Shown here piece after piece: positions 1,722 through 14,762 of a stretch of DNA of 64,000 bases; position 1 is the first letter of the stretch; every line of letters begins with the position of its first letter. The position numbers and the translations under genes were made by a program. Below the pieces are notes generated by a model. The model was not told the DNA's origin. It saw only the letters and a list, made by a program, of their open reading frames with translations, and did no database searches. This DNA is from Rugosimonospora africana (GTDB lineage Bacteria > Actinomycetota > Actinomycetes > Mycobacteriales > Micromonosporaceae): NCBI RefSeq assembly GCF_016862975.1, contig NZ_BONZ01000030.1, positions 62,001 to 126,000 of the forward strand, read 5' to 3'.

Positions 1722-3599
1722 ATGATCAGACAAAGACGCCGTCTACTGTCCACTGTGGTGATTGCGGCGATGGCGGCCGCCTTGCTCACCACCGGCACCG
1801 CGTACGCCGCCGAGCCGTACCACGAGGAGACCGCGGTCTTCACGGCGAACACGGAAGGCCACTTCTGTTACCGGATCCCGGCGATCGTCAAGGCCGCCAA
1901 CGGGGATCTGCTCGCGTTCGCCGAGGGTCGGGTCGACAACTGCAACGACCGGGGCAACATCGACCTGGTGCTCAAACGGTCGCACGACGGCGGCCGCACC
2001 TGGGGGCCCTTGCAGATCGTGTCGCGCGGCAACGGCGACACGCATGGCAACCCGATGCCGGTCGTGGACGAACGTACCGGTCGGGTCGTGCTGTTCACGA
2101 CTCACAACCCGGGCACCGGAACCGGCGGTCGGGTTCCGTACCTGCAGGTCAGTGACGACAACGGGGCGACCTGGACCGCTCCGCGGGAAATGACCGAGTT
2201 GCTGCGTCCGGAGTGGACGAGTTGGTATGCCACCGGTCCCGGGCACGCCATCCAGCTCACGCGTGGCCCGCATGCCGGCCGGCTGGTGATCAGCGCCAAC
2301 CACGAGGGTGGGACGCCTTCTCCGGGCATCCTCCTCGCCTACAGCGACGACGACGGGAACACGTGGCAGATGGGCGCCGACGGCGGTGGCGCCACCCCCG
2401 ACATCGCCGTCAACGAGTCGAGTCTGGTGGAGCTGACCGACGGGCGGATCTACGTCAACGTGCGGGAGGGCGGAACGGCCCTGGGAACCCGGGCGTACGC
2501 GATCTCCAGCGATGGCGGTGAAAGCTACGACGCGCCGTTCCAGATGGTGCCCGAGCTGACGATGCCTGTCGTGCAGGGATCGATGGTGCGCCTGGACGCC
2601 ACCGACCAGGGCGACGCGGGCAACCGCATCCTGTTCGCCGGACCCGCCAACCCCGGCAAGCGTGAGGCTCTGACGATCCGGTCGTCGTTCGACGAGGCGC
2701 AGAGCTGGCAGACGTGGCAGCAAGGCAAGGTCATCAGCTGGGGTCCGGGCGGGTACTCCGACCTGGTGAAGATCGGGAACGATCCCGTCGAGGGGCCCGT
2801 GGCCGGGGTGCTGTACGAAGGCGGCACGGTCGCGCTGTACGAGGTGATCGAGTTCGTCAGGTTCAACGAGGCGTACCTCGACACCCCCAACGGCACACCG
2901 CCGAACCTGCCGCCGCCGCCAGCGCCGGGGCCGACCACCCCGGACGCGTCACCGCGCTACGACAACACCGCCTATGTGCGCGGCGGGGCGACGCTGACCG
3001 ATGGGCGCTTCGGCGACGGGCTCGCGTTCGACGGCGTCGACGACCGCGTGGAGGTGCCGTACAACAGCGACGTCGACCTCGGAGACGGCGACTTCACCAT
3101 CATGACGTGGTTCCGGTACAGCGCGACCACCGGTCAGCACACCCTCTGGTGGTTCTACCAATGGGGTACCGGCGCGGCACAGATCTGGCTGCGGGCGTAC
3201 CCGGTGAACAACCGCATCCAGGCCGTCGTCGGCACCGGCCAAGGCGACGCGAACATCACCATCCAGGGTGCGTACAACGACGGGCTCTGGCACCACGTCG
3301 CGATGCGACGCACGGCGACCCGGGTCCAGGTCCTCATCGACGGCGCCACGGTCGCCGACGTGGCCGCCCCCCGCGGCTCGGTGACCACCGGCAAGGAGTT
3401 CGGCATCCAGAGCATCATCCTCGGCCAACGGATCGACCAGACCAACGTCGACCCGTTCCACGGCACCCTCGACGAATTCCGCGTCTACGGCCGCGCCCTC
3501 AGCGATGAGGAACTGCGGGAGATCCGGCAGCACAACGTACCCATCGCCGGGCAGCTCCGGCTCCGCCTCCCGTTCACGACCATCAAACCTCAGCAATAG
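1722..3599 (+). CDS. Secreted sialidase (GH33) with C-terminal LamG-like domain
   Basis: 625 aa exo-sialidase predicted to release terminal sialic acid from extracellular glycans. A signal peptide (residues 1-30, ending AYAA) is followed by a six-bladed propeller: YRIP with the arginine-triad Arg51, Asp76 as likely acid/base, Asp-boxes SHDGGRTW, SDDNGATW and SDDDGNTW, Glu232 in NESS, Arg302 in GNR, and Tyr345 in GYSDL as the expected nucleophile. A Pro-rich linker (~395-410) leads to a LamG/concanavalin-like domain (~425-610) that could bind carbohydrate. GGAGG lies 12 bp before the ATG, slightly far. It is a paralogue of the gene at 37816 and shares its operator motif. Confidence 0.92.
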   Translation: MIRQRRRLLSTVVIAAMAAALLTTGTAYAAEPYHEETAVFTANTEGHFCYRIPAIVKAANGDLLAFAEGRVDNCNDRGNIDLVLKRSHDGGRTWGPLQIVSRGNGDTHGNPMPVVDERTGRVVLFTTHNPGTGTGGRVPYLQVSDDNGATWTAPREMTELLRPEWTSWYATGPGHAIQLTRGPHAGRLVISANHEGGTPSPGILLAYSDDDGNTWQMGADGGGATPDIAVNESSLVELTDGRIYVNVREGGTALGTRAYAISSDGGESYDAPFQMVPELTMPVVQGSMVRLDATDQGDAGNRILFAGPANPGKREALTIRSSFDEAQSWQTWQQGKVISWGPGGYSDLVKIGNDPVEGPVAGVLYEGGTVALYEVIEFVRFNEAYLDTPNGTPPNLPPPPAPGPTTPDASPRYDNTAYVRGGATLTDGRFGDGLAFDGVDDRVEVPYNSDVDLGDGDFTIMTWFRYSATTGQHTLWWFYQWGTGAAQIWLRAYPVNNRIQAVVGTGQGDANITIQGAYNDGLWHHVAMRRTATRVQVLIDGATVADVAAPRGSVTTGKEFGIQSIILGQRIDQTNVDPFHGTLDEFRVYGRALSDEELREIRQHNVPIAGQLRLRLPFTTIKPQQ

Positions 3600-3608
3600 C
3601 CGCGGCGA

Positions 3609-3658
3609 CGGTGCCCCGCCGGACGCCTATGAGAATCCAGGCGTCCGGCGGGGCACCG
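3609..3658 (+). terminator. Strong 20-bp-stem terminator after the sialidase
   Basis: Arms at 3609-3628 and 3639-3658 are perfectly complementary over 20 bp, with a 10-nt A-rich loop. It starts 10 bp after the sialidase stop and has no T-tract, as is common in actinomycetes. Confidence 0.85.
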
Positions 3659-3701
3659 CGCTGGCGAACCACCCGGCGCGGGACCGTGATGTGAGACACG
3701 G

Positions 3702-3731
3702 TTCAACTTCCATTAAGCCTATGGGTACAGT
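3702..3731 (+). promoter_or_regulatory. Promoter with CCTATGGG operator, upstream of leader peptide 1
   Basis: A -10 TACAGT (3726-3731) lies 18 bp after a weak -35 TTCAAC (3702-3707). CCTATGGG at 3718-3725 fills the end of the spacer. The 17-mer CCTATGGGTACAGTAGG matches 14 of 17 positions of the element at 13276. The leader GTG at 3739 is 8 bp past the -10, so the transcript is probably leaderless. Confidence 0.6.
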
Positions 3732-3738
3732 AGGGATC

Positions 3739-3813
3739 GTGAACGGCTCACTGCTCTGGTCCCGGCGCGAGATCGACCTCGCGTTCTTCGCCAGTGCGCT
3801 GTGTCGGCGCTGA
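3739..3813 (+). CDS. Putative Cys/Arg-terminated leader peptide 1
   Basis: A 24-codon frame starting with GTG exactly where transcription is predicted to begin. It contains WSRREIDL and ends ASALCRR-stop. This resembles the short actinobacterial leader peptides (SRRxIDL...ALCR) commonly annotated upstream of sulfur-assimilation genes; that family match is from memory. It lies 190 bp before the ROK regulator gene. Inference: cysteinyl-tRNA shortage stalls ribosomes at the terminal Cys-Arg codons and changes downstream expression. The sequence 3814-4005 contains no other gene. Confidence 0.65.
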   Translation: MNGSLLWSRREIDLAFFASALCRR

Positions 3814-4005
3814 CTGGCTGTTCTACCGTTCGCACCGCGGCGCCCGCCATTGTCAGCGGGGCCAATCTGATCCATCGAGCCGGCGGCACCTCGTAGTGGG
3901 GCCCGGCGGGATCCCCGCTTCTCCGGTCATCCGCGACCGCTAGCGATATCTGATGCCACGCGGGCTTGTGCCGCGACGGCGTTCATCCTTCCGGGTGACT
4001 CACCT

Positions 4006-5241
4006 GTGGCGAGGTGGTTCGTGAACGAGCCGGCCGGCATCGGGCGTACGACCCGGCGGGGCGACCTGCCACCGCCCGTGCCTCAGAAGTCGCGAGACAC
4101 GGCAGGGGAGGTGCTGCGCACCATCCTCGACCATGGGCCGATCGCGCGCAGTTCGGTCGCTCGGGCGGCGCGCCTGTCCGCGGCTTCGGTCAGTGGCGTC
4201 GCTGCCTCGCTGCTGGACCGTGGACTCGTCCGTGAGGTTCCGGAGGCGGCCGGGCCACCCGGTGTCGGTCGGCCGCACGTGCCGCTGAACATCGACACCG
4301 ACGGCTTCGCGGTCATCGGCGCGCACATCGCGGTCACACACACGACGGTTGCCCTGCTTGACCTTCGGGGACGGGTCATCGCGCAACGCCGGGATCCGCG
4401 CGGCGGTAGCGACCCGGACGACGTCCTCGCCGCACTCGCCTCACGGGTGGCCGCCCTCCGCGACGAGTACGGCCGAGGGCGCCGGATCCTCGGCCTCGGT
4501 ACCGCGACGGGCGGCTGGGTGGACGCCGCGAACGGCGCGGTCGTCGAACATCCGCTCCTCGGATGGCACGACGTTCCGGTCGGTGGCGTGCTGGCCGAGG
4601 CCACCGGGCTCCCGGTGCGTCTCGACGGCAACTCCCGCGCGTTGCTCACCGCCGAACTGCTGTTCGGCGCCGCCGCCCGGCGTGCCCGGGACAGCGCGGT
4701 TCAGCTCTTCGTGGGAGATGCCGTCGACGTGGCCTTCGCGTTGGGCGGCACCGTCCATCGCGGTGTCCGGTCTGCCGCCGGCGCTGTCGCTCACCTGCCG
4801 GTGGAGGGCTGCCGTGAGGTCTGTGCCTGTGGCCGCACCGGCTGCCTGCAGGCCGTTGTCTCCGGCCAGACGCTCGTGCGCCGTGCGCTGGCCGGTGGAC
4901 TGATCGACCGGCCCGACTTCCGCGCCCTGGTGGGTGCGGCCGTCGCCGGACACGAAGAGGCGGTCGCGATGTTCGAGGAGCGGGCCCGAGTCGTGGGCCG
5001 GGCCGCGGGCGCGCTACTCGACCTGTTCGACCCGGCGGTTCTCGTTGTGGTGGAAGCGGGTGCGAACCGGTTGCCCGGACTGTTCGGGACGGTACGAGCC
5101 GAAGCGGCGGCCTGGTCGGATGGGGGCGCCGCCGCGGCCAGAGTCATTCGGCCGACCAGCTTTCCGGACAACGTACTCGCGGTCGCCGGAGGCGCGGTCG
5201 CCCTCGACCGGGTGTATGCCGCGCCGCTGGACACGTGCTGA
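4006..5241 (+). CDS. ROK-family transcriptional regulator (SsuR-like by context)
   Basis: 411 aa. The N-terminal winged helix (~25-85; ARSSVARAARLSAASVSGVAASLL) is followed by a ROK kinase-fold domain. The ROK zinc motif is visible as GAVAHLPV...CACGRTGCLQ (His and three Cys). The phosphate-binding DxGxT is degenerate, as expected for a regulator rather than a sugar kinase. Family knowledge: the sulfonate regulator SsuR of Corynebacterium glutamicum is a ROK protein, and this gene stands directly before an ssu-type operon. GTG at 4006 is used; GTG at 4021 with GCGAGG upstream is an equally good start. Confidence 0.85.
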   Translation: MARWFVNEPAGIGRTTRRGDLPPPVPQKSRDTAGEVLRTILDHGPIARSSVARAARLSAASVSGVAASLLDRGLVREVPEAAGPPGVGRPHVPLNIDTDGFAVIGAHIAVTHTTVALLDLRGRVIAQRRDPRGGSDPDDVLAALASRVAALRDEYGRGRRILGLGTATGGWVDAANGAVVEHPLLGWHDVPVGGVLAEATGLPVRLDGNSRALLTAELLFGAAARRARDSAVQLFVGDAVDVAFALGGTVHRGVRSAAGAVAHLPVEGCREVCACGRTGCLQAVVSGQTLVRRALAGGLIDRPDFRALVGAAVAGHEEAVAMFEERARVVGRAAGALLDLFDPAVLVVVEAGANRLPGLFGTVRAEAAAWSDGGAAAARVIRPTSFPDNVLAVAGGAVALDRVYAAPLDTC

Positions 5242-5293
5242 TTGCCGTCCTTCGCCGTCGGAGGAATCGTAGTTAATTCAGCCCGGCGCATAG

Positions 5294-5321
5294 TTGTCAA
5301 CTAAGCCCATCGGATTAGTAT
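5294..5321 (+). promoter_or_regulatory. Promoter of the organosulfur operon with CCCATCGG operator
   Basis: -35 TTGTCA (5294-5299), a 16-bp spacer, and -10 TAGTAT (5316-5321). CCCATCGG (5306-5313) sits inside the spacer, where a bound repressor would block RNA polymerase. The predicted start falls on the GTG of leader peptide 2 (5329). Confidence 0.7.
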
Positions 5322-5328
5322 GAATTCT

Positions 5329-5403
5329 GTGCTGACGATGACCCAGACACCGAGCGGTCCGATCTCGGACCGGGCGTGTCCGGTCGCGTCCTGTCATCGC
5401 TGA
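5329..5403 (+). CDS. Putative Cys-rich leader peptide 2
   Basis: 24 codons, the same length as leader peptide 1. GTG lies 8 bp past the -10; an in-frame ATG exists at 5320. It ends RACPVASCHR-stop, with two Cys in the last eight residues. A small hairpin follows (GCCCGC 5434-5439 / GCGGGC 5446-5451), and the flavin reductase starts 137 bp downstream. Inference: a cysteine- or sulfur-sensing attenuator for the whole operon. Confidence 0.6.
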   Translation: MLTMTQTPSGPISDRACPVASCHR

Positions 5404-5488
5404 CACCGGCACACACGCCCGACGCCCGCTCCCGCCCGCCGTGCCGCGGGCCGGATTCGCCCTGGCGTACTTCGACATCCGAGCGGAA

Positions 5489-5528
5489 GCCGACCTCAGA
5501 TCCGAGCAGCCGACCTCAGATCCGAACG
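5489..5528 (+). repeat. Two 20-bp tandem units before the flavin reductase
   Basis: The unit GCCGACCTCAGATCCGAGCA at 5489-5508 is repeated with two changes at 5509-5528, ending at the ribosome-binding site (CGGAG 5527-5531) of the next gene. Confidence 0.75.
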
Positions 5529-5540
5529 GAGCCGACCCCT

Positions 5541-6047
5541 ATGACCACCGTCGCCCCCCGATCACGCCTATCCCTACCGGTCGACGCCGCGTTGTTCCGC
5601 CAGGTGTTCCGGCGCCACGCAGCGGGTGTCGCTGTCGTGACCGCCGACGCGGGACGCGGCCCCGCGGGCGTGACCGTGACATCCCTCGCCTCGCTGTCCG
5701 CCGAACCGCCCCTGCTGTCCTTCAGCATCTCGGCGACCGCGTCGACCTGGCCGCACCTTCGGGACGCCGACACTGCTGTCGTGCACCTGCTGGGAGCGGC
5801 GCACACCGAGTTGGCGCGGACCTTCGCCACCAGCGGTATCGATCGGTTCGCCGCGCCGACCCGCTGGCGCCGGCTGCCGACCGGCGAACCCGTCCTGGAC
5901 GGTGCCGCCGCCTGGTTGCGGATCTGGCTCGAACACCGCCACCCCGCCGGCGGTTCGCATCTGGTCATCGGCCTGATCGAAGAGGTGGGGATCGCCGAAG
6001 CCGGCGGCCCGTTGCTCTATCACGACGGCACCTACCACGCCCTCTGA
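5541..6047 (+). CDS. Flavin reductase family protein (monooxygenase partner)
   Basis: 168 aa. It belongs to the small NAD(P)H:flavin oxidoreductases of the split-barrel type: FRRHAAGVAVVTA at the N-terminus, GVTVTSLASLSAEPPLLSF for the FMN site, and a late HLVIGLIEEV strand. It would supply reduced FMN to the two flavin-dependent monooxygenases at 8925 and 10330. The ATG at 5541 is chosen because the conserved fold starts right after it and CGGAG is 9 bp upstream; the longer open frame upstream is the leader region. First structural gene of the operon. Confidence 0.85.
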   Translation: MTTVAPRSRLSLPVDAALFRQVFRRHAAGVAVVTADAGRGPAGVTVTSLASLSAEPPLLSFSISATASTWPHLRDADTAVVHLLGAAHTELARTFATSGIDRFAAPTRWRRLPTGEPVLDGAAAWLRIWLEHRHPAGGSHLVIGLIEEVGIAEAGGPLLYHDGTYHAL

Positions 6048-6149: not shown

Positions 6150-7325
6150 ATGACCACATCGCCCCAGCCCCCGGCCCTCGACGCCGGCCGCCGAACCCAC
6201 CGCCGCGCGGCTGATCGCGGCGGCGTCGGGCAGGCGACCGGCCGCGTGCGGCGCACCGACCGATCGCGCCGTTCGGCGCTCGCGTGCGTCGCGGTGCTGG
6301 CCGTCGCACTGTCCGGCCTGACCGCCTGCGGGAGCAAGGACTCGGGCGCAACCCTGGAGCTGTCGGCCGCACTGCCCGACAAGGTCCCCGGCGGCACAGT
6401 CATCCGGATCGGTGATCCGTCGATCCAGGCGATCGTGCAGACCTCGGGCCTGAGCAGACAGCTGGCGGACGCCGGCGTGAAAGTCCAGTGGGCCAACATC
6501 AGTGGCGGTCCGCAGAGCATTCAAGCCTTCCGCGGCAACAAGCTCGACTGCAGCTCGGTCGCCGACATCCCCTCGCTGTTCGCCGCCTGGACCGGAACCT
6601 CGACCAGAATCATCTTCCAGTCGGTGACGGTCGATCCGCTCGAGCACCCCATCTACGAACTGGGTGTGGCTCCCGGGGTCACGGTCACCTCGCTGGCGGA
6701 CCTCCGGGGCAAGAAGATCGCCTACAGTGCCGGCCAGGCGCAGGGCGCGCTCGTGCTGCGGGTACTGCAGAAGGCGGGCCTGACTCAGAAGGATGTCAAG
6801 CTGATCGACCTGACCAGCACCGGTGACTCGTACGTCACGGCGCTTGGCGGCAAAGCCGTCGACGTCGCGCCACTCGGGGCCGCCAACGTGAAGATCTACG
6901 AGGGGAAGTACCCGGGAGGCACCGCGATCCCGACCGGCATCCGTGACGACGCGTCGACGCTCTACTGCCTGACCAGCTCCGTGAAGGACGAGGCGAAGGC
7001 TGCCGCGCTCAAGGTGTACGTCGCGGTCCGCACCAAGGCGTTGCTGTGGCAGAACCAGCACCCCGACGAGTACGCCAAGGCGTACCTCGAGGACGTCCAG
7101 GGGCTCAGCGCCGCCGACGCGAAGACGGTCAACGCGCTCGACGGGACCGCGGGCATACCGTCGACCTGGGACAACGCGCAGACTCGGCTCCAGGAAACCG
7201 CCGACCTGCTGGCCAGGGAGCAGGGCCACAAGAAACTCGACGTGAGCATCCTCGTGGACCGCCGCTTCGAGAAGATCGAGGCAGCGGCCGCCGGCTCCGA
7301 TGTGGTCACCGGTGACGCGTCATGA
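6150..7325 (+). CDS. ssuA: Sulfonate-type ABC transporter substrate-binding lipoprotein
   Basis: 391 aa. After an Arg-rich N-terminus, a hydrophobic segment ends in lipobox LSGLTAC (Cys60), so the mature protein is membrane-anchored outside the cell. The fold is the SsuA/NMT1 type: IRIGDPSIQAIVQTSG, SVADIPSLFAAW, VTSLADLRGKKIAYSAGQAQG. It probably captures an organosulfur compound. AAGGA precedes the ATG. The stop overlaps the permease start (ATGA), so transporter subunits are translationally coupled. The exact ligand cannot be read from sequence. Confidence 0.85.
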   Translation: MTTSPQPPALDAGRRTHRRAADRGGVGQATGRVRRTDRSRRSALACVAVLAVALSGLTACGSKDSGATLELSAALPDKVPGGTVIRIGDPSIQAIVQTSGLSRQLADAGVKVQWANISGGPQSIQAFRGNKLDCSSVADIPSLFAAWTGTSTRIIFQSVTVDPLEHPIYELGVAPGVTVTSLADLRGKKIAYSAGQAQGALVLRVLQKAGLTQKDVKLIDLTSTGDSYVTALGGKAVDVAPLGAANVKIYEGKYPGGTAIPTGIRDDASTLYCLTSSVKDEAKAAALKVYVAVRTKALLWQNQHPDEYAKAYLEDVQGLSAADAKTVNALDGTAGIPSTWDNAQTRLQETADLLAREQGHKKLDVSILVDRRFEKIEAAAAGSDVVTGDAS

Positions 7326-8188
7326 CCACGACCGGCGCCATCGACGCGCTCACCGTGGCCAAGGCGACCGTGCCGGGCGCGGGCGCCCCGAAGACCGATG
7401 CCCGGGTCGTACGCCGCCGGCTCGGTCCGGGCCGCCGGATCCGGTTCGCCTTCTGGGTGGGACCGATCCTCTTGTTGGCCGTCTGGGCCATCGGCTCGAA
7501 GGTCGGCGTCATCAACCCGGCGGTCCTCACGGCGCCGTGGGACGTGGCGCAAGCGTTCCAGGACCAGTGGGTCAACCACGATCTCGGTGGCGACATCGCC
7601 GCCTCGTTGGAGCGGGCCGGGCTCGGACTGGCCTTCGGGGTGGTCGGCGGCACGCTGCTCGCCGTGACCTCGGGGCTCTCGCGGATCGGGGAGTCCCTGA
7701 TCGACGGTCCGATCCAGATCAAGCGGTCGGTCCCCACGCTGGCGCTGATCCCGTTGTTCGTCGCCTGGTTCGGCATCGGCCAGGAAATGAAGATCGTGAC
7801 GATCGCACTGATCAGCATGATCCCGGTCTACGTCAACACGCACAACGGGCTGCGCAGTATCGACGGCAAGTACGCCGAGCTGGCCGAGACCATCGGGATC
7901 GGGCGCGGCGAGTTCATCCGGCACGTGGTGCTGCCGGGGGCGTTGCCGGGATTCCTGCTCGGTATGAGGTTCGCGGTGACGTCGGCGCTGCTCGGCCTCG
8001 TCGTGGTGGAGCAGTACAACGCGACCAGCGGCATCGGCCACATGATGACGCTCGCCGAGGAGTACGGCGAAACCGACGTGCTCGTCGTCGGCCTGGTGCT
8101 CTACGGCGTCTTCGGCTTCCTCGCCGACACCGCCGTCCGGCTCACGGAGAGGAGGGCGCTGTCATGGCGACGGACGATCGAGGGCTGA
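7322..8188 (+). CDS. ssuC: Sulfonate-type ABC transporter permease
   Basis: 288 aa inner-membrane permease of the SsuC/TauC type. A cytoplasmic N-terminus of ~40 residues precedes about six membrane segments. The EAA-type loop that docks the ATPase is visible as EYAETIGIGRGEFIRHVVLPGALPG-like sequence around residues 190-215 (YAELAETIGIGRGEFIRHV). Start overlaps the substrate-binding gene; the 3' end overlaps the ATPase gene by 25 bp. Confidence 0.9.
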   Translation: MTTTGAIDALTVAKATVPGAGAPKTDARVVRRRLGPGRRIRFAFWVGPILLLAVWAIGSKVGVINPAVLTAPWDVAQAFQDQWVNHDLGGDIAASLERAGLGLAFGVVGGTLLAVTSGLSRIGESLIDGPIQIKRSVPTLALIPLFVAWFGIGQEMKIVTIALISMIPVYVNTHNGLRSIDGKYAELAETIGIGRGEFIRHVVLPGALPGFLLGMRFAVTSALLGLVVVEQYNATSGIGHMMTLAEEYGETDVLVVGLVLYGVFGFLADTAVRLTERRALSWRRTIEG

Positions 8189-8925
8189 TCCGTAACACCG
8201 CGGACGCGCCGGCGGTGCGGGTACGCAATCTGCACCGGAGCTTCAGCGAGAACGGGGGAGTGCTCGACGGGCTCGACCTGGACATCGCCCCCGGCGAGTT
8301 CGTGGCGCTGATCGGGCGCTCCGGCACCGGCAAGAGCACTCTGCTGCGGGCTCTGGCCGGACTGGACCGGGACGTCGCCGGGTACGGTCAGATCCGCGTC
8401 CCGGACGCCGTGTCGGTGGTCTTCCAGGACTCCCGGCTGCTGCCCTGGAAACGGGTCCTGGACAACGTGGTCTTCGGTCTGCGTGCCGGCGACGCGGCCG
8501 AGCGCGGCGGGCAGGCACTGGCCGAGGTCGGCCTGGCCGGCCGCGAACGGGCCTGGCCTGACGAACTGTCCGGCGGCGAGCAGCAGCGCGCCTCGCTGGC
8601 CCGCTCGCTCGTCCGCGAACCCGCGCTGCTGCTGGCCGACGAGCCGTTCGGTGCGCTCGACGCGCTGACCCGGATCCGGATGCACGCGCTGCTGCGCAAG
8701 CTGTGCGAGGTGCACAGGCCGTCGGTGCTCCTGGTGACCCACGACGTCGACGAGGCCATCGTGCTCGCCGACCGGGTGATCCTGCTCGATGCCGGTGTCG
8801 TGCGCACCGACGTACGGGTGGAGCTGCCCCACCGTTCTCAGGCCGATCCCGGGTTCGCTGAGCTACGCGCGTTCCTGCTCGACCAGTTGGGTGTCAACGA
8901 TCTCACCGCGGAGGTGACCGCCTGA
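8164..8925 (+). CDS. ssuB: Sulfonate-type ABC transporter ATPase
   Basis: 253 aa. All nucleotide-binding motifs are intact: Walker A GRSGTGKS (51-58), Q-loop Gln88, signature LSGGEQQR (135-142), Walker B LLLADE (155-160) and switch His193 in VTHDVDEA. It energises uptake together with the 6150 and 7322 products. The ATG at 8164 lies inside the permease gene, and its TGA overlaps the ATG of the next monooxygenase (TGATG), indicating tight coupling. Confidence 0.92.
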   Translation: MATDDRGLIRNTADAPAVRVRNLHRSFSENGGVLDGLDLDIAPGEFVALIGRSGTGKSTLLRALAGLDRDVAGYGQIRVPDAVSVVFQDSRLLPWKRVLDNVVFGLRAGDAAERGGQALAEVGLAGRERAWPDELSGGEQQRASLARSLVREPALLLADEPFGALDALTRIRMHALLRKLCEVHRPSVLLVTHDVDEAIVLADRVILLDAGVVRTDVRVELPHRSQADPGFAELRAFLLDQLGVNDLTAEVTA

Positions 8926-10274
8926 TGGCCCGCCAGCTCCACTTCAATCTGTTCCTGCACGACACCGGCCACCACGAGGCGTCGTGGCGGCTGCCCGAGT
9001 CGGACCCGCGGGCCAACCTCTCGCTGGAGGCGCACCAACACCTGGCGCGGATCGCCGAGGACGCGAAGTTCGACTCCGTGTTCCTCGCCGACAGCCCTGT
9101 GTTGTGGAGCGACCCGGGTCGCCGGCCGTCGGGCAAGCTCGAGCCGACGCTGTTGCTCGCCGCGCTCGCCGTGGGTACGAGCAGGATCGGGCTGATCGCG
9201 ACGGCCTCGACGTCGTACAACGATCCCTACAACCTGGCCCGCCGGTTCGCCTCGCTCGACCACCTGTCCAAAGGCCGCGCCGGCTGGAACATCGTCACCA
9301 CCGCCGGAGACTCCGCCGCACGCAATTTCGGCCTGGAGCATCAGCCGTCGCACAAGACGCGCTACGAGCGGGCCGACGAGTTCCTCGCGGTCTCGACCAA
9401 GCTGTGGGACAGCTGGGCCGACGACGCGGTCGTCGCCGACAAGGACGCGGGTGTCCACGCCCGGCAGGACCGGGTTCGCGGCATCGACCACCGCGGGACG
9501 TTCTTCCGGGTGAACGGGCCACTGAACCTGCCGCGTTCACCACAGGCTCACCCGCTGCTCGTGCAGGCCGGCTCCTCCGAGGACGGCAAGGAGTTCGCCG
9601 CCAAGTGGGCCGAGGCCATCTTCACCGCCCAGCCGACTCTCGGGGAGAGCCAGGCGTTCTACGCCGACCTGAAGCGCCGCGCGGCGGCGGCCGGTCGCGA
9701 CCCGGATCACGTCATCATCCTGCCCGGAATCGTGCCGGTCATCGGCGACACCGAGGTGGAGGCGCGCGAGCTCGACGCTGAGCTGGATCGGCTGATCGCC
9801 CCGCGGTACGCCGTGACGCAGCTCGCCGAGACGCTGCGCGTGGACCCCGAACGGTTGAAGCTGGACGACCAACTCCCCGCGGACCTGCCCAGCGAGGATG
9901 AGATCGAGGGTGCGAAGAGCCGGTACACCCTCATCGTCGACTGGGCCCGGCGGGACAACCTGACCGTACGGGAGCTGATCGGCCGGCTCGGCGGCGGGCG
10001 CGGTCACCGTACTTTCACCGGTACGCCTGTGCAGGTGGCCGACACCATCCAGCACTACTTCGACAACGGCGCCGCGGACGGCTTCAACATCATGCCGGCG
10101 GTACTGCCTTCGGGAATCGAGGCGTTCGCGAGCAAGGTGGTACCGATCCTTCGGGAGCGCGGCCTGTTCCGTACCGAGTACGAAGGCTCCACGCTGCGGG
10201 AGCACTACGGGCTGCCTCGGCCGGTCAACCAGTTCACGACGGCGGACAGCGCGCCGGGGCGCTCGGCGTCATGA
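8925..10274 (+). CDS. NtaA/DszA-type FMN-dependent monooxygenase
   Basis: 449 aa luciferase-like monooxygenase of the NtaA/SnaA/DszA/DmoA subfamily: HLNFLFL-like start, SVFLADSPVLWS, NIVTTAGDSAARNFG, LPRSPQAHPLLVQAGSS and EAIFTAQPT are characteristic. Members use reduced FMN and O2 to cleave C-S or C-N bonds (dimethyl sulfide, sulfones, EDTA, nitrilotriacetate). The ssu-like context favours an organosulfur substrate. It is coupled to the ATPase gene and followed after 55 bp by a second monooxygenase. Confidence 0.88.
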   Translation: MARQLHFNLFLHDTGHHEASWRLPESDPRANLSLEAHQHLARIAEDAKFDSVFLADSPVLWSDPGRRPSGKLEPTLLLAALAVGTSRIGLIATASTSYNDPYNLARRFASLDHLSKGRAGWNIVTTAGDSAARNFGLEHQPSHKTRYERADEFLAVSTKLWDSWADDAVVADKDAGVHARQDRVRGIDHRGTFFRVNGPLNLPRSPQAHPLLVQAGSSEDGKEFAAKWAEAIFTAQPTLGESQAFYADLKRRAAAAGRDPDHVIILPGIVPVIGDTEVEARELDAELDRLIAPRYAVTQLAETLRVDPERLKLDDQLPADLPSEDEIEGAKSRYTLIVDWARRDNLTVRELIGRLGGGRGHRTFTGTPVQVADTIQHYFDNGAADGFNIMPAVLPSGIEAFASKVVPILRERGLFRTEYEGSTLREHYGLPRPVNQFTTADSAPGRSAS

Positions 10275-10329: not shown

Positions 10330-11490
10330 GTGAGCCTGACGTTCTTGTGGTACATCCCCAACACCGTCGAGCCGGGACACCGGGGCGACGACGCCGTCGA
10401 CGGCTACGGCAGCCTCCACCACGCCGTGGACCTGGCCCGGATCGCCGAGCAGCACGGCTGGTCCGGGGCGCTGATCGGCACCGGGTGGGGTCGGCCCGAC
10501 ACGTTCACGGTCGCCACCGCGCTCGCGGTCCGTACCACGACCTTCCGGCCGCTCGCGGCCATCCGCCCCGGCTACTGGCAGCCGGCGCACTTCGCGAGCG
10601 CGGCGGCGACCCTGGACCACCTCAGCGGCGGCCGGCTGCTCGTCAACGTCGTCAGCGGGCAGGACAACCTGGCGGCGTACGGCGACGCCGAGGGCGATCA
10701 GGCCCAGCGCTACGCGCGGACCAAGGAGTTCATGCGCATCGTCCGGCGGCTGTGGACCGAGGAGCACGTGACCTACGCGGGCGAGTACTTCGGGGTCACC
10801 GATTCCACGGTGGTACCGCGGCCGCACGGAGCCGGTCCGCGCCTGTACTTCGGCGGCGCGTCCACGGCCGCGGAACGGGTCTCGGCCACCGAGGCCGACG
10901 TGCAGCTGTTCTGGGGTGAGCCGCTGGACGGCATCGCCGAACGCGTCGACCGACTCCGCCGCCTCAGCGCGGAGCTGGACCGCGACCTGCCCCCGCTGGA
11001 GTTCGGGCTGCGGATCACCACGCTGGTTCGCGACACGACCGAGGAGGCGTGGCGGGACGCGGAGGCGAAGGTCGCCGCCATGGCGGAGCGCTCCGGAGGG
11101 CTCGCCGACCGGCACCGCGGCCCCGCGGTCGGGCAGCAGCGGCTGCTCGACCTGGCCGCGCGCGGCGACGTACTCGACAGCTGCCTCTACACCGCGCCCG
11201 GACGGTACGGCGGCGGAGGCGCGGGTACGACCTGGCTGGTCGGCTCGCCCGACGATGTCGCCAGCGCGCTGCGCCGGTACGCCGAGTTGGGCATCCGGCA
11301 CTTCGTCCTGTCCGACACTCCCTACAAGCAGGAGACGGTCCGGGTCGGCGACGCGCTCATCGGGCGGCTGCGCGACTCGGTGGCGCAGCGGCCGCTGCCT
11401 GAGCCGCTGCCGGAGCCCTCGCTGTCTGAGTCTTCGCTGTCTGAGTCTTCGCTGTCTGAGCCGGAGCCGGTGACCGTGGCCGCGCCGTAA
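10330..11490 (+). CDS. ssuD: Alkanesulfonate monooxygenase (SsuD-like)
   Basis: 386 aa FMNH2-dependent monooxygenase, expected to convert sulfonates to aldehyde plus sulfite. SsuD features are FLWYIPN, a LAAIRPGYWQPAHFAS region and LLVNVVSGQDN with GEYF and LYFGGAS. GTG start with GGAGA 4 bp upstream. The last ~35 residues are an added low-complexity tail encoded by a 15-bp tandem repeat and are not part of the barrel. It ends the operon and converges on the PfkB gene. Confidence 0.87.
   Translation: MSLTFLWYIPNTVEPGHRGDDAVDGYGSLHHAVDLARIAEQHGWSGALIGTGWGRPDTFTVATALAVRTTTFRPLAAIRPGYWQPAHFASAAATLDHLSGGRLLVNVVSGQDNLAAYGDAEGDQAQRYARTKEFMRIVRRLWTEEHVTYAGEYFGVTDSTVVPRPHGAGPRLYFGGASTAAERVSATEADVQLFWGEPLDGIAERVDRLRRLSAELDRDLPPLEFGLRITTLVRDTTEEAWRDAEAKVAAMAERSGGLADRHRGPAVGQQRLLDLAARGDVLDSCLYTAPGRYGGGGAGTTWLVGSPDDVASALRRYAELGIRHFVLSDTPYKQETVRVGDALIGRLRDSVAQRPLPEPLPEPSLSESSLSESSLSEPEPVTVAAP
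11419..11463 (+). repeat. 15-bp tandem repeat in the 3' end of the ssuD-like gene
   Basis: The unit TCGCTGTCTGAGTCT occurs at 11419-11433 and 11434-11448, with a partial copy to 11463, encoding SLSES repeats in the C-terminal tail. Confidence 0.85.
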
Positions 11491-13156: not shown

Positions 13157-13243
13157 GCGGTCTCCTTTGTTGGGGTCGATCGCTGAACGGTCATTCACGG
13201 CGCTTCTCCCGCTCGCGCCGTGGCTGCCATCGGACCCGCACCC

Positions 13244-13273
13244 AGGCTAGAGCGCTCTTCGCGTTGCGGTCAA
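13244..13273 (-). promoter_or_regulatory. Promoter of the FMN reductase-PfkB operon
   Basis: On the minus strand: -35 TTGACC (13273-13268), 18-bp spacer, -10 TAGCCT (13249-13244). The CCCTATGGG element at 13275-13283 touches the upstream edge of the -35. Confidence 0.6.
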
Positions 13274-13274
13274 T

Positions 13275-13292
13275 CCCTATGGGATAAGTAGG
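13275..13292. promoter_or_regulatory. CCCTATGGG operator between divergent sulfur genes
   Basis: CCTATGGGATAAGTAGG (13276-13292) is the best-conserved copy of the element and serves here as the reference. Shared 14 of 17 with the sites at 3718 and 15336. Confidence 0.6.
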
Positions 13293-13334
13293 TAATACGG
13301 CTTGTTGAGGTCGGCCTTGTCGGTCACAGGCGCC

Positions 13335-13364
13335 TTGACATTTAGTCGACCAACCCGATAGGAA
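13335..13364 (+). promoter_or_regulatory. Promoter of the FAD/NAD(P)-binding oxidoreductase with CCGATAGG
   Basis: -35 TTGACA (13335-13340), 18-bp spacer, -10 TAGGAA (13359-13364). CCGATAGG (13355-13362) overlaps the -10. The flanking CCGATAGGAATT resembles sites bound by CymR-type Rrf2 repressors of sulfur metabolism, as I recall them. Confidence 0.65.
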
Positions 13365-13391
13365 TTAAGTGGTATCCAGAGGAGAGATTCG

Positions 13392-14762
13392 ATGGGACGC
13401 ACAAGCACGGTGGTGGTGGGCGGCGGGTGTAGCGGGGTGCTCGCGGCGGTGCAACTGCTCCGGCACACTTCCGATCGGGTGACGGTGGTGGAGTCCGGCG
13501 CGACCCTTGGCGCGGGGATCGCATACCGCACGCCCGTGGTGGCGCACGTGCTCAACTCCCGGGCCGCCGCGATGAGTGGCGATCCCGACGACCCGGACGA
13601 CTTCCTGGTCTGGACACGCCGACAGGCCATCCCGTTGCGCCCGGTCGGATTCGCTGTCCGCCGTGACTACGGACGGTACCTCCACGACCTGCTGGACGCG
13701 GCGGCCCTCGACAACCCCGGCCGGTTCACCCACCTCCGTGCCCGGGTCACCGGACTGAGCCCGAACGGGCGTGTCCAGGTGGTCACCGACCGGGGCGCCA
13801 CCCTGCGAGCAGACCGAGTCGTGCTCGCCATCGGACACGGCTCACCGAACCGGCCGCGCCAGCTCAGTGAATCCGCCGCGTGCCACCCAGGATACGTGCC
13901 GGACCCGTGGCGGCCCGGAGCGCTTGACGCCATCGCGCTGGATCGGCCCGTCCTGTTGCTGGGCACCGGCCTGACCGCTGTGGATGTGGCCCTGGCACTT
14001 CAGATCCGGGGCATGCGAGCACCGATCCACGCGGTCTCCCGGCACGGGCTGCTGCCGCTGGTACACACCGCCGAACCCACCGCACCGCTCGTTGCCGCGT
14101 CGCCTGTTGCCGTGCCGCCTGTTGCCGTGCCGCCTGTTGCCGTGCCGCCCACACCGGATGCCCTCCGAACCCTCATCCACCGGATCCAGGTGAGCGCCCG
14201 CGGCGCCCCGGACTGGCGCGACGTTGTCGACAGCATCCGCCCGAGCGCCAATGAGCTGTGGGCCGGGCTGCGCCTGGAGGACCGCGACAGCTTCCTGCGC
14301 CATGTCTGCCGGTACTGGGAGATTCACCGGCACCGGATGGCGCCCTCGGTCGCCGTCCTGGTTCACGGGCTGCTGGCCGACGGCGCGCTTCGCGTGCGAG
14401 CGGCGGCTCTGTCCACTGTAGACGTCGAGGCGGATCGGTTCATCGTCGACAGCGGGCCGGGCACACGCTGGCGGGTCGGTGCCGTGGTCAACTGCACCGG
14501 TCGAGGCAGTGCCGCACGGTCATCGCTGGGTCGCCGACTCCTGGCTGACGGACTGGCCCGCCCCGACCCGCTCGGCGTGGGCATCGACGTCGACACCGAC
14601 GGCCGCCTCGTCTCCGGCACCGGTCGCAGCCACGAAAGGATCCTGGCGATTGGGCCGCCGCGGCGTGGCCAGTGGTGGGAAACCGACGCGGTACCGGAGA
14701 TCAGAGCGCAGGCGCGGGGACTGCTGAGCATTCCAGCTCCCCGTTCCCGGATCGCCGCCTGA
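13392..14762 (+). CDS. FAD/NAD(P)-binding oxidoreductase
   Basis: 456 aa. A dinucleotide-binding VVVGGGCSGVLAAVQLL opens the protein; GAGIAYRTP, VLNSRAAAMSG and a second nucleotide loop LLLGTGLTAVDVALAL (~190-205) follow, ending with VVNCTGRGS. This is the FAD-NAD(P)-binding family that includes lysine/ornithine-monooxygenase-like proteins often found beside sulfonate genes. GGAGAG precedes the ATG. A Pro/Ala/Val linker (~235-255) is built of 15-bp repeats. The reaction is unknown; the position under a CCGATAGG promoter points to organosulfur catabolism. Confidence 0.8.
   Translation: MGRTSTVVVGGGCSGVLAAVQLLRHTSDRVTVVESGATLGAGIAYRTPVVAHVLNSRAAAMSGDPDDPDDFLVWTRRQAIPLRPVGFAVRRDYGRYLHDLLDAAALDNPGRFTHLRARVTGLSPNGRVQVVTDRGATLRADRVVLAIGHGSPNRPRQLSESAACHPGYVPDPWRPGALDAIALDRPVLLLGTGLTAVDVALALQIRGMRAPIHAVSRHGLLPLVHTAEPTAPLVAASPVAVPPVAVPPVAVPPTPDALRTLIHRIQVSARGAPDWRDVVDSIRPSANELWAGLRLEDRDSFLRHVCRYWEIHRHRMAPSVAVLVHGLLADGALRVRAAALSTVDVEADRFIVDSGPGTRWRVGAVVNCTGRGSAARSSLGRRLLADGLARPDPLGVGIDVDTDGRLVSGTGRSHERILAIGPPRRGQWWETDAVPEIRAQARGLLSIPAPRSRIAA
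14091..14150 (+). repeat. 15-bp tandem repeat, four units, coding for VAVPP
   Basis: Units at 14091, 14106, 14121 and 14136 (GTTGCCGTGCCGCCT); the last three are nearly identical. They form an in-frame linker inside the oxidoreductase. Confidence 0.9.

Follow-up and report, generated by a model that had tools for sequence, protein, structure and literature searches.

Why should a sulfonate-type gene cluster carry, before its regulator gene and again before its enzyme and transporter genes, a very short reading frame with cysteine codons close to the stop? The window analysed, meaning the whole 64-kb stretch of DNA from Rugosimonospora africana, has two such frames, both on the plus strand, and the sequence bears out what a preliminary description had assigned to them: 24 codons each, a GTG start, a TANNNT -10 element and the ends CRR and ASCHR. 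ORF 1 (3739..3813) runs from GTG 3739 to TGA 3811-3813 and encodes MNGSLLWSRREIDLAFFASALCRR, with the C-terminus LCRR and its one Cys codon at position 22 of 24. ORF 2 (5329..5403) runs from GTG 5329 to TGA 5401-5403 and encodes MLTMTQTPSGPISDRACPVASCHR, with the C-terminus ASCHR and two separate Cys codons, 17 and 22 of 24. A run of several Cys codons is absent from both. The -10 element of leader 1 is TACAGT (3726..3731), and that of leader 2 is TAGTAT (5316-5321), each separated from the GTG by 7 nt; the 8 bp given earlier hold in the sense that the GTG begins at the eighth base. The predicted, sequence-derived transcription start is thus the GTG itself in both cases, a leaderless geometry. 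An in-frame ATG at 5320 lies within the -10 element of leader 2 and is therefore not expected in the transcript. In a promoter scan of 3600-5700, TTGTCA-16-TAGTAT (5294..5321, plus strand) was the sole sigma-70-like site, with 0.1 expected from shuffles, and no -35 was scored for leader 1. The two leaders are two of only three short ORFs (12-45 aa) in the window, on both strands, with TANNNT positioned 6-8 nt before an ATG or GTG. Sixty Markov-3 random windows contained a mean of 1.87 such leaderless ORFs with lengths of 20-30 aa; with the ending C[RHKC]{1,2} required as well, the mean was 0.033, a value that is indicative as the ending was picked after the peptides were known.

The genes that follow are those originally named, as family scans established. 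Leader 1 precedes, by 207 nt from its stop, a gene for a ROK-family regulator (4021..5241, plus strand; Pfam ROK, E 2.4e-28), whose start was taken as GTG 4021, with GAGGTGG directly 5′ and GTG 4006 as the alternative. Leader 2 is followed, after a 137 nt gap (5404..5540), by a flavin reductase gene with its ATG at 5541 (5541..6047; Pfam Flavin_Reduct, E 5e-34) and then, on the same strand, by genes for an SsuA-like sulfonate substrate-binding protein (6150..7325; TIGR01728, E 6.7e-24, below cut-off), an SsuC-like permease (7322..8188; NF008470, E 2.8e-56, below cut-off), an SsuB-like ATPase (tested piece 8290..8925, the gene beginning farther upstream; NF008420, E 1.6e-62, below cut-off), an NtaA/DmoA-family FMN monooxygenase (8925..10274; TIGR03860, E 1.9e-166, above cut-off) and an SsuD-like alkanesulfonate monooxygenase (10330..11490; TIGR03565, E 1.6e-65, below cut-off). 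Judged by family matches, most of them under curated cut-offs, the operon behind leader 2 is confirmed as sulfonate-type, and the link of the leaders to sulfur genes is supported by the neighbourhood in the window, in the rest of the genome and in relatives.

According to the available text of PMC2580772, Corynebacterium glutamicum has, in SsuR and CysR, ROK proteins that govern its sulfonate and sulfate genes and whose own transcripts are leaderless. From its ROK membership, its neighbourhood and this precedent, the window protein may be SsuR/CysR-like, and in both organisms a ROK-type protein is tied to sulfonate genes. The SsuR and CysR genes have no 5′ leader, a state that the ROK genes of the Actinoplanes group may share, and the available text of PMC2580772 makes no mention of a leader peptide for either. 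The sequence TTAATTCA (5273..5280, plus strand) recurs, intact or nearly so, in several loci of the Actinoplanes group at the same place, 5′ of the promoter of the flavin reductase gene. Its complement TGAATTAA resembles the CysR 3′ half-site TGAAtnnAAt, as that site is given in the same text, and may have a similar role.

The two peptides differ in how they relate to known families. Peptide 1 matches the NCBIfam family NF042934, "putative leader peptide", at 19.1 bits and E 7e-4 in a protein scan, under the 27-bit cut-off, and spans model positions 1-19 of 19 from its leaderless start. NF042934 is classed as cis_reg_atten and, like peptide 1, has an R-R-x-[IV]-D-L core and an S-A-x-C end, is leaderless and lies near sulfur genes; leader 1 differs from the family in preceding a ROK regulator gene rather than one for an enzyme or transporter, and in its sub-cut-off score. 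By sequence, leader 1 belongs, though marginally, to this known kind of leader peptide. At E<=0.01 NF042934 was found in 140 of 150 sampled genomes of the bacterial family, in 123 above the cut-off, and in none of 14 controls; under the looser E<=10 limit of the own-genome search, 10 of the 14 controls had matches, none above the cut-off. In that six-frame search of the whole genome leader 1 scored 16.4 bits (E 0.154) and was one of 14 matches. Seven of these were read and four besides leader 1 were judged real short frames, three of which precede an SBP_bac_5 transporter gene, a molybdopterin oxidoreductase gene and NIR_SIR/PAPS-reductase genes; some of these frames have no clean -10 at 6-8 nt. 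The frame before the SBP_bac_5 gene (G000:C90) has a counterpart in another locus, L077, in which the NF042934-like leader MVGPLLHSRREIDLAHCASVLCLR (minus strand, 5246-5172) precedes a gene for an apparent peptide-type ABC transporter substrate-binding protein.

Mycobacterial polycysteine ORFs, one of which lies before Rv0485, presumably a ROK regulator gene, resemble the window leaders in being leaderless, in having Cys codons near the 3′ end and in preceding sulfur genes or, in the Rv0485 case, a regulator gene. They differ in that the window leaders have one and two Cys codons, no Cys run and unrelated peptide sequences, and in that the window ROK protein belongs to an Actinoplanes clade apart from that of the Cys-leader ROK proteins. 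In the available text of Shell et al. 2015 (PMC4633059), such leaderless short ORFs are reported before cysA2, Rv0485/Msmeg_0932 and nirA. Leader peptides with Cys codons have also been described before cys operons of Mycobacterium and Propionibacterium and before cbs of Bifidobacterium by Seliverstov et al. (PMC1262725, in its available portion), where the prediction, a weak one, is that Rho acts on those of Mycobacterium. Like the window leaders, these are described as having Cys codons close to the stop, as lacking a conserved terminator and as possible targets of Rho; they stand before other genes in other organisms.

Taken with the frames, the promoter-like elements, the sub-threshold match of peptide 1 and the homologue of leader 2 at the same place described below, both of which support the original reading of the frames as leader peptides, it is probable that both ORFs are leaderless leader peptides and that the downstream genes are under the control of cysteine supply. 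Transcription would start at the GTG and a 70S ribosome would initiate at the 5′ end of the RNA, with the Cys codons coming close to the end of the frame. With Cys-tRNA charged, the ribosome would complete the frame and leave, and the gene behind would lose expression; the most likely agent is Rho, working on the C-rich RNA 3′ of the stop, with closure of the ribosome-binding site as the alternative. With cysteine short, the ribosome would stall at the last Cys codons and cover the C-rich RNA, and the gene would be expressed. Leader 1 would act in this way on the ROK regulator and leader 2 on the flavin-reductase/ssu operon, which the ROK protein may activate. Sensing of cysteine by the leaders is plausible in view of the Cys codons by the stop and the mycobacterial precedent; the single Cys codon of peptide 1 makes a thin sensor and counts against it. 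The one argument for coupling of the two leaders is their arrangement.

Action of Rho on the RNA that follows a leader stop has a precedent in the tna operon, and Rho loading sites are characteristically richer in C than in G. Over the 90 nt after the leader stop, C minus G had a mean of +0.146 in 29 leader loci, as compared to 0.001 upstream of the leader, and in 17 of the 29 it was +0.188, versus +0.033 for the 137 segments that served as controls (p 1.6e-7). The loci lack independence, the 29-locus set contains the leader of L077 and not those of L112, L113 and L120, the leader values are rounded and the control segments may include leader-bearing ones. The excess is weak in 12 ROK-leader loci (mean +0.085 versus +0.033 in the controls, p 0.025) and weak also after leader 1 itself, at +0.04. 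Following leader 2 the value is +0.16 in the first 90 nt, and the C-rich start of 5404..5540 is a candidate Rho loading region. Other forms of control were sought in the same RNA. There are no intrinsic terminators in 3600-5700, and so no classical transcription attenuator, and no Rfam RNA family, riboswitches included, matched at the gathering score in the window. We prefer Rho-type control and hold to it loosely.

The same leaders could instead operate through translational attenuation, in which the leader RNA pairs with the downstream ribosome-binding site and a stalled ribosome opens the pairing, so that Rho is unneeded. Cysteine genes of M. smegmatis are under translation attenuation, according to the available text of a paper that cites Canestrari et al. 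2020 (PMC13236596), and the Shine-Dalgarno regions in the window are partly paired in the predicted folds. We nevertheless consider this explanation possible but rather doubtful: the RNAs fold no better than their shuffles (z -0.17, -0.37 and +0.45), a mask in place of the stalled ribosome gives no clear release of the next start site and little change in accessibility, and the gaps to the genes, 207 and 137 nt, are long. Closure of the Shine-Dalgarno sites thus found no clear support in the masked folds or in the shuffle comparison.

Peptide 2 has no match to any NCBIfam family, NF042934 included, at E<=1 in either a 24- or a 27-aa form. A DNA search with leader 2 gave matches at E<=0.1 in 347 of 354 genomes of the family, nearly all of them short and weak; below 1e-10 there were only the window and one genome of another genus, G012, the sole strong match among the 353 other genomes. 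A second match in the own genome (C41) is not a leader. The G012 match (blastn, 80% identity over query positions 8-87 of 224, the ORF plus five bases, E 1.4e-13) contains MPTMITPLCGPTSDLACPGASCCR, also a frame of 24 codons with a GTG, here 6 nt after TAGTAT and with adjacent Cys codons (CC). It immediately precedes a gene like ssuA, 78% identical at the protein level, at the head of an ssu operon, and tblastn with the window proteins over the surrounding 19 kb found neither ROK nor flavin reductase. G012 also has a stretch similar to the leader 2 promoter TTGTCA-16-TAGTAT. There are no indels between the two copies of the frame; length, start, stop, both Cys codons and the -10 are kept and many other residues drift. 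Identity is 59/75 in the ORF and 40/66 upstream and 52/86 downstream in alignment columns. The third relative is partial: in L051, a MAG labelled Actinoallomurus, a longer frame, without the leader 2 promoter, ends in MTTPLGGPTSDRACPGASCRR before a flavin reductase gene. L051 also has a type-1 leader, MDSRLTIRGYVDFCRIASALCRR, ~530 nt before the flavin reductase gene, and no ROK match. At 2499-3105 the type-1 leader and the leader-2-like tail stand in tandem, and the tail is joined in frame to an ORF that resembles a signal peptide; the locus has probably been rearranged. A possible hairpin within leader 2, GGTCCGATCTCGGACC (5356..5371, plus strand; palindrome GGTCCGAYCTCGGACC; predicted pairs), is kept in the window, G012 and L051. 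At E<=0.01 a profile of the three copies matched 12 of 354 family genomes and 11 of 396 phylum genomes, with E<1e-10 for the window and G012. The other 20 matches (10 in the family set and 10 in the phylum set, E 2.8e-4 to 0.0096) have no 24-codon leaderless frame, and two of these weak matches, L235 and L236, happen to end in GPTSDRACPGCR and AGPTSDLECPGGACR, in longer frames. The suggestion that the second peptide may be a new variant is supported, within the narrow compass of G012 and one MAG tail; as far as its sequence goes, leader 2 is a new variant.

The ssuA-type loci compared were the best 80 of 279. Seventeen of the 80 are from the Actinoplanes group, and in 16 of these 17 a ROK gene adjoins the ssu genes. 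Leader 1 was found before none of the 16 ROK genes. The flavin-reductase promoter is kept in eight Actinoplanes-group loci, as TAGTATG or, once, TACTATG, and a Cys-ended leader 2 follows it in none of the eight; these absences rest on a strict pattern search, one that misses the L051 leader, together with separate ORF scans. Conservation among relatives, one of the checks originally set for these peptides, is accordingly mixed: the G012 homologue and the L051 tail speak for it, and in the loci of the closest relatives neither leader was found. Leader 2 could be a chance ORF at a conserved promoter, with leader 1 alone functional or with just the promoter and a transcription factor of importance. 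The eight loci that keep the promoter without leader 2 favour this, as do the codon changes between the window and G012, of which 2 are synonymous and 10 of 12 non-synonymous, with no sign of general protein-level selection. Nevertheless, such an origin is unlikely, as the G012 homologue retains the length, the Cys codons and the -10 without indels, only 0.033 such ORFs are expected per window, and the three-copy profile singles out the window and G012 among the 354 family genomes, its 20 weak matches having no comparable frame.

Cys-ended leaderless ORFs within 2.2 kb upstream of ssuA are present in 16 of the best 80 of the 279 loci (13 in sense and 3 from a stricter scan, with L077, located elsewhere and on the opposite strand, and 10 other rows excluded). 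They are of several unrelated types, including Micromonospora-type (SRGCCRGWT), Glycomyces-type (RRREIDQMRAASALC) and others with polycysteine ends (ACCCCR). Near ssuA there is no significant enrichment of leaderless ORFs when one or more Cys is required close to the end (7/21 versus 35/132, p 0.60); when two or more are required, the enrichment is significant (5/21 versus 4/132, p 0.003). What these many leaders of unrelated sequence have in common is chiefly Cys codons near the end, which fits codon sensing and makes it very improbable that the peptides work in trans, as small Cys-containing proteins and not in cis, even though a trans role is reported for the leader peptide peTrpL in the available text of PMC7298713. 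In L112 and L113 (genomes G007 and G025), related ssu operons begin with the leaderless frames MTLVGTMTQHATRDAAVGTCC and MTAVGKFTQRRDLVPTRAFRACCCCR, each ended by a stop codon and each behind a near-identical promoter, AATCCCTAGTTAYCCGATNGGARTTAGGGAATAGT.

An order-wide search of 298 genomes for the ROK protein gave the window itself, 30 closer matches and 43 with lower scores. The 29 closest homologues and L272 were scanned and had no convincing leader; L201 has one weak candidate. Among the lower-scoring loci, 41 of 43 were examined (G448 and G518, near contig ends, were left out), and 39 of the 41 have a leaderless Cys-rich ORF roughly 200-550 nt before the ROK gene. In the full set of loci, L217 repeats L186. 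The arrangement seen with leader 1 therefore recurs at distant ROK loci. The two loci without such a leader, L218 and L246, are from families f4 and f2, and all 39 leader-bearing loci are from f8, most likely Mycobacteriaceae; a closer-type ROK gene in f8 (G591:C193) has no Cys leader. A FastTree phylogeny that took in 12 of the 39 leader-bearing genes placed the window protein within the Actinoplanes group and these 12 proteins in a separate clade, and the pairing of leader and ROK gene therefore appears to have been gained twice, independently. The f8 loci (L208-L216, L219-L221, L244, L245 and L247-L271) have at least two leader sequence types before related regulator genes, a polycysteine type ending in RRACCCRAPRRA and the type VTYVTAALGxRLPLxRELCC.

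We propose, with confidence somewhat short of even, that the locus is a two-tier sulfur switch in which a ROK activator resembling SsuR and the sulfonate operon that it targets would each have their own, sequence-unrelated Cys-codon leader, a feed-forward loop with both tiers passing a cysteine check, that leader 2 (GPxSDxACPxASCxR) would found a new small leader family, and that Cys leaders before ROK regulators may have arisen independently in two lineages. If so, control by cysteine-codon leaders would extend to the scavenging of organosulfur compounds and also to the gene for the regulator. Selection is suggested to act chiefly on the Cys codons and on their closeness to the stop, with the remainder of the peptide free to drift, and this would account for the failure of homology searches to find such leaders. 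Our literature search, which reached few subscription papers, found no report of leader peptides before actinomycete ssu operons; the available text of Naville and Gautheret 2010 (PMC2965389) mentions an element of the terminator type upstream of a sulfonate transporter operon. The locus, with two natural leaders, is one at which the question of Rho versus translation could be tested.

Possible operators were also considered. A shared CymR-like operator with the core CCNATNGG, present at four promoter regions of the island (3718, 5306, 13276 and 13355), was rejected, as the core occurs 15 times in the window versus 17.8 times in shuffles. A longer promoter motif, matched in at least 8 of its 12 positions by 12 of 23 leader promoters and by ~3% of random 80-mers, is not claimed because it was derived from the same promoters. 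The divergent promoter region at 13180-13392, which separates a minus-strand FMN-reductase-like gene from a plus-strand gene for a flavoprotein, carries TCCCTATGGGATAAG and CCAACCCGATAGGAATTA, both akin to stretches just 5′ of the -10 elements of leaders 1 and 2, and possibly a common operator of the island. Many of the loci L052-L066 and L075 have, before the ROK gene, an inverted repeat like GTTACCGACCGTNAAACGTCCGGTAAC, which is not present before the window ROK gene and is a possible operator in those loci.
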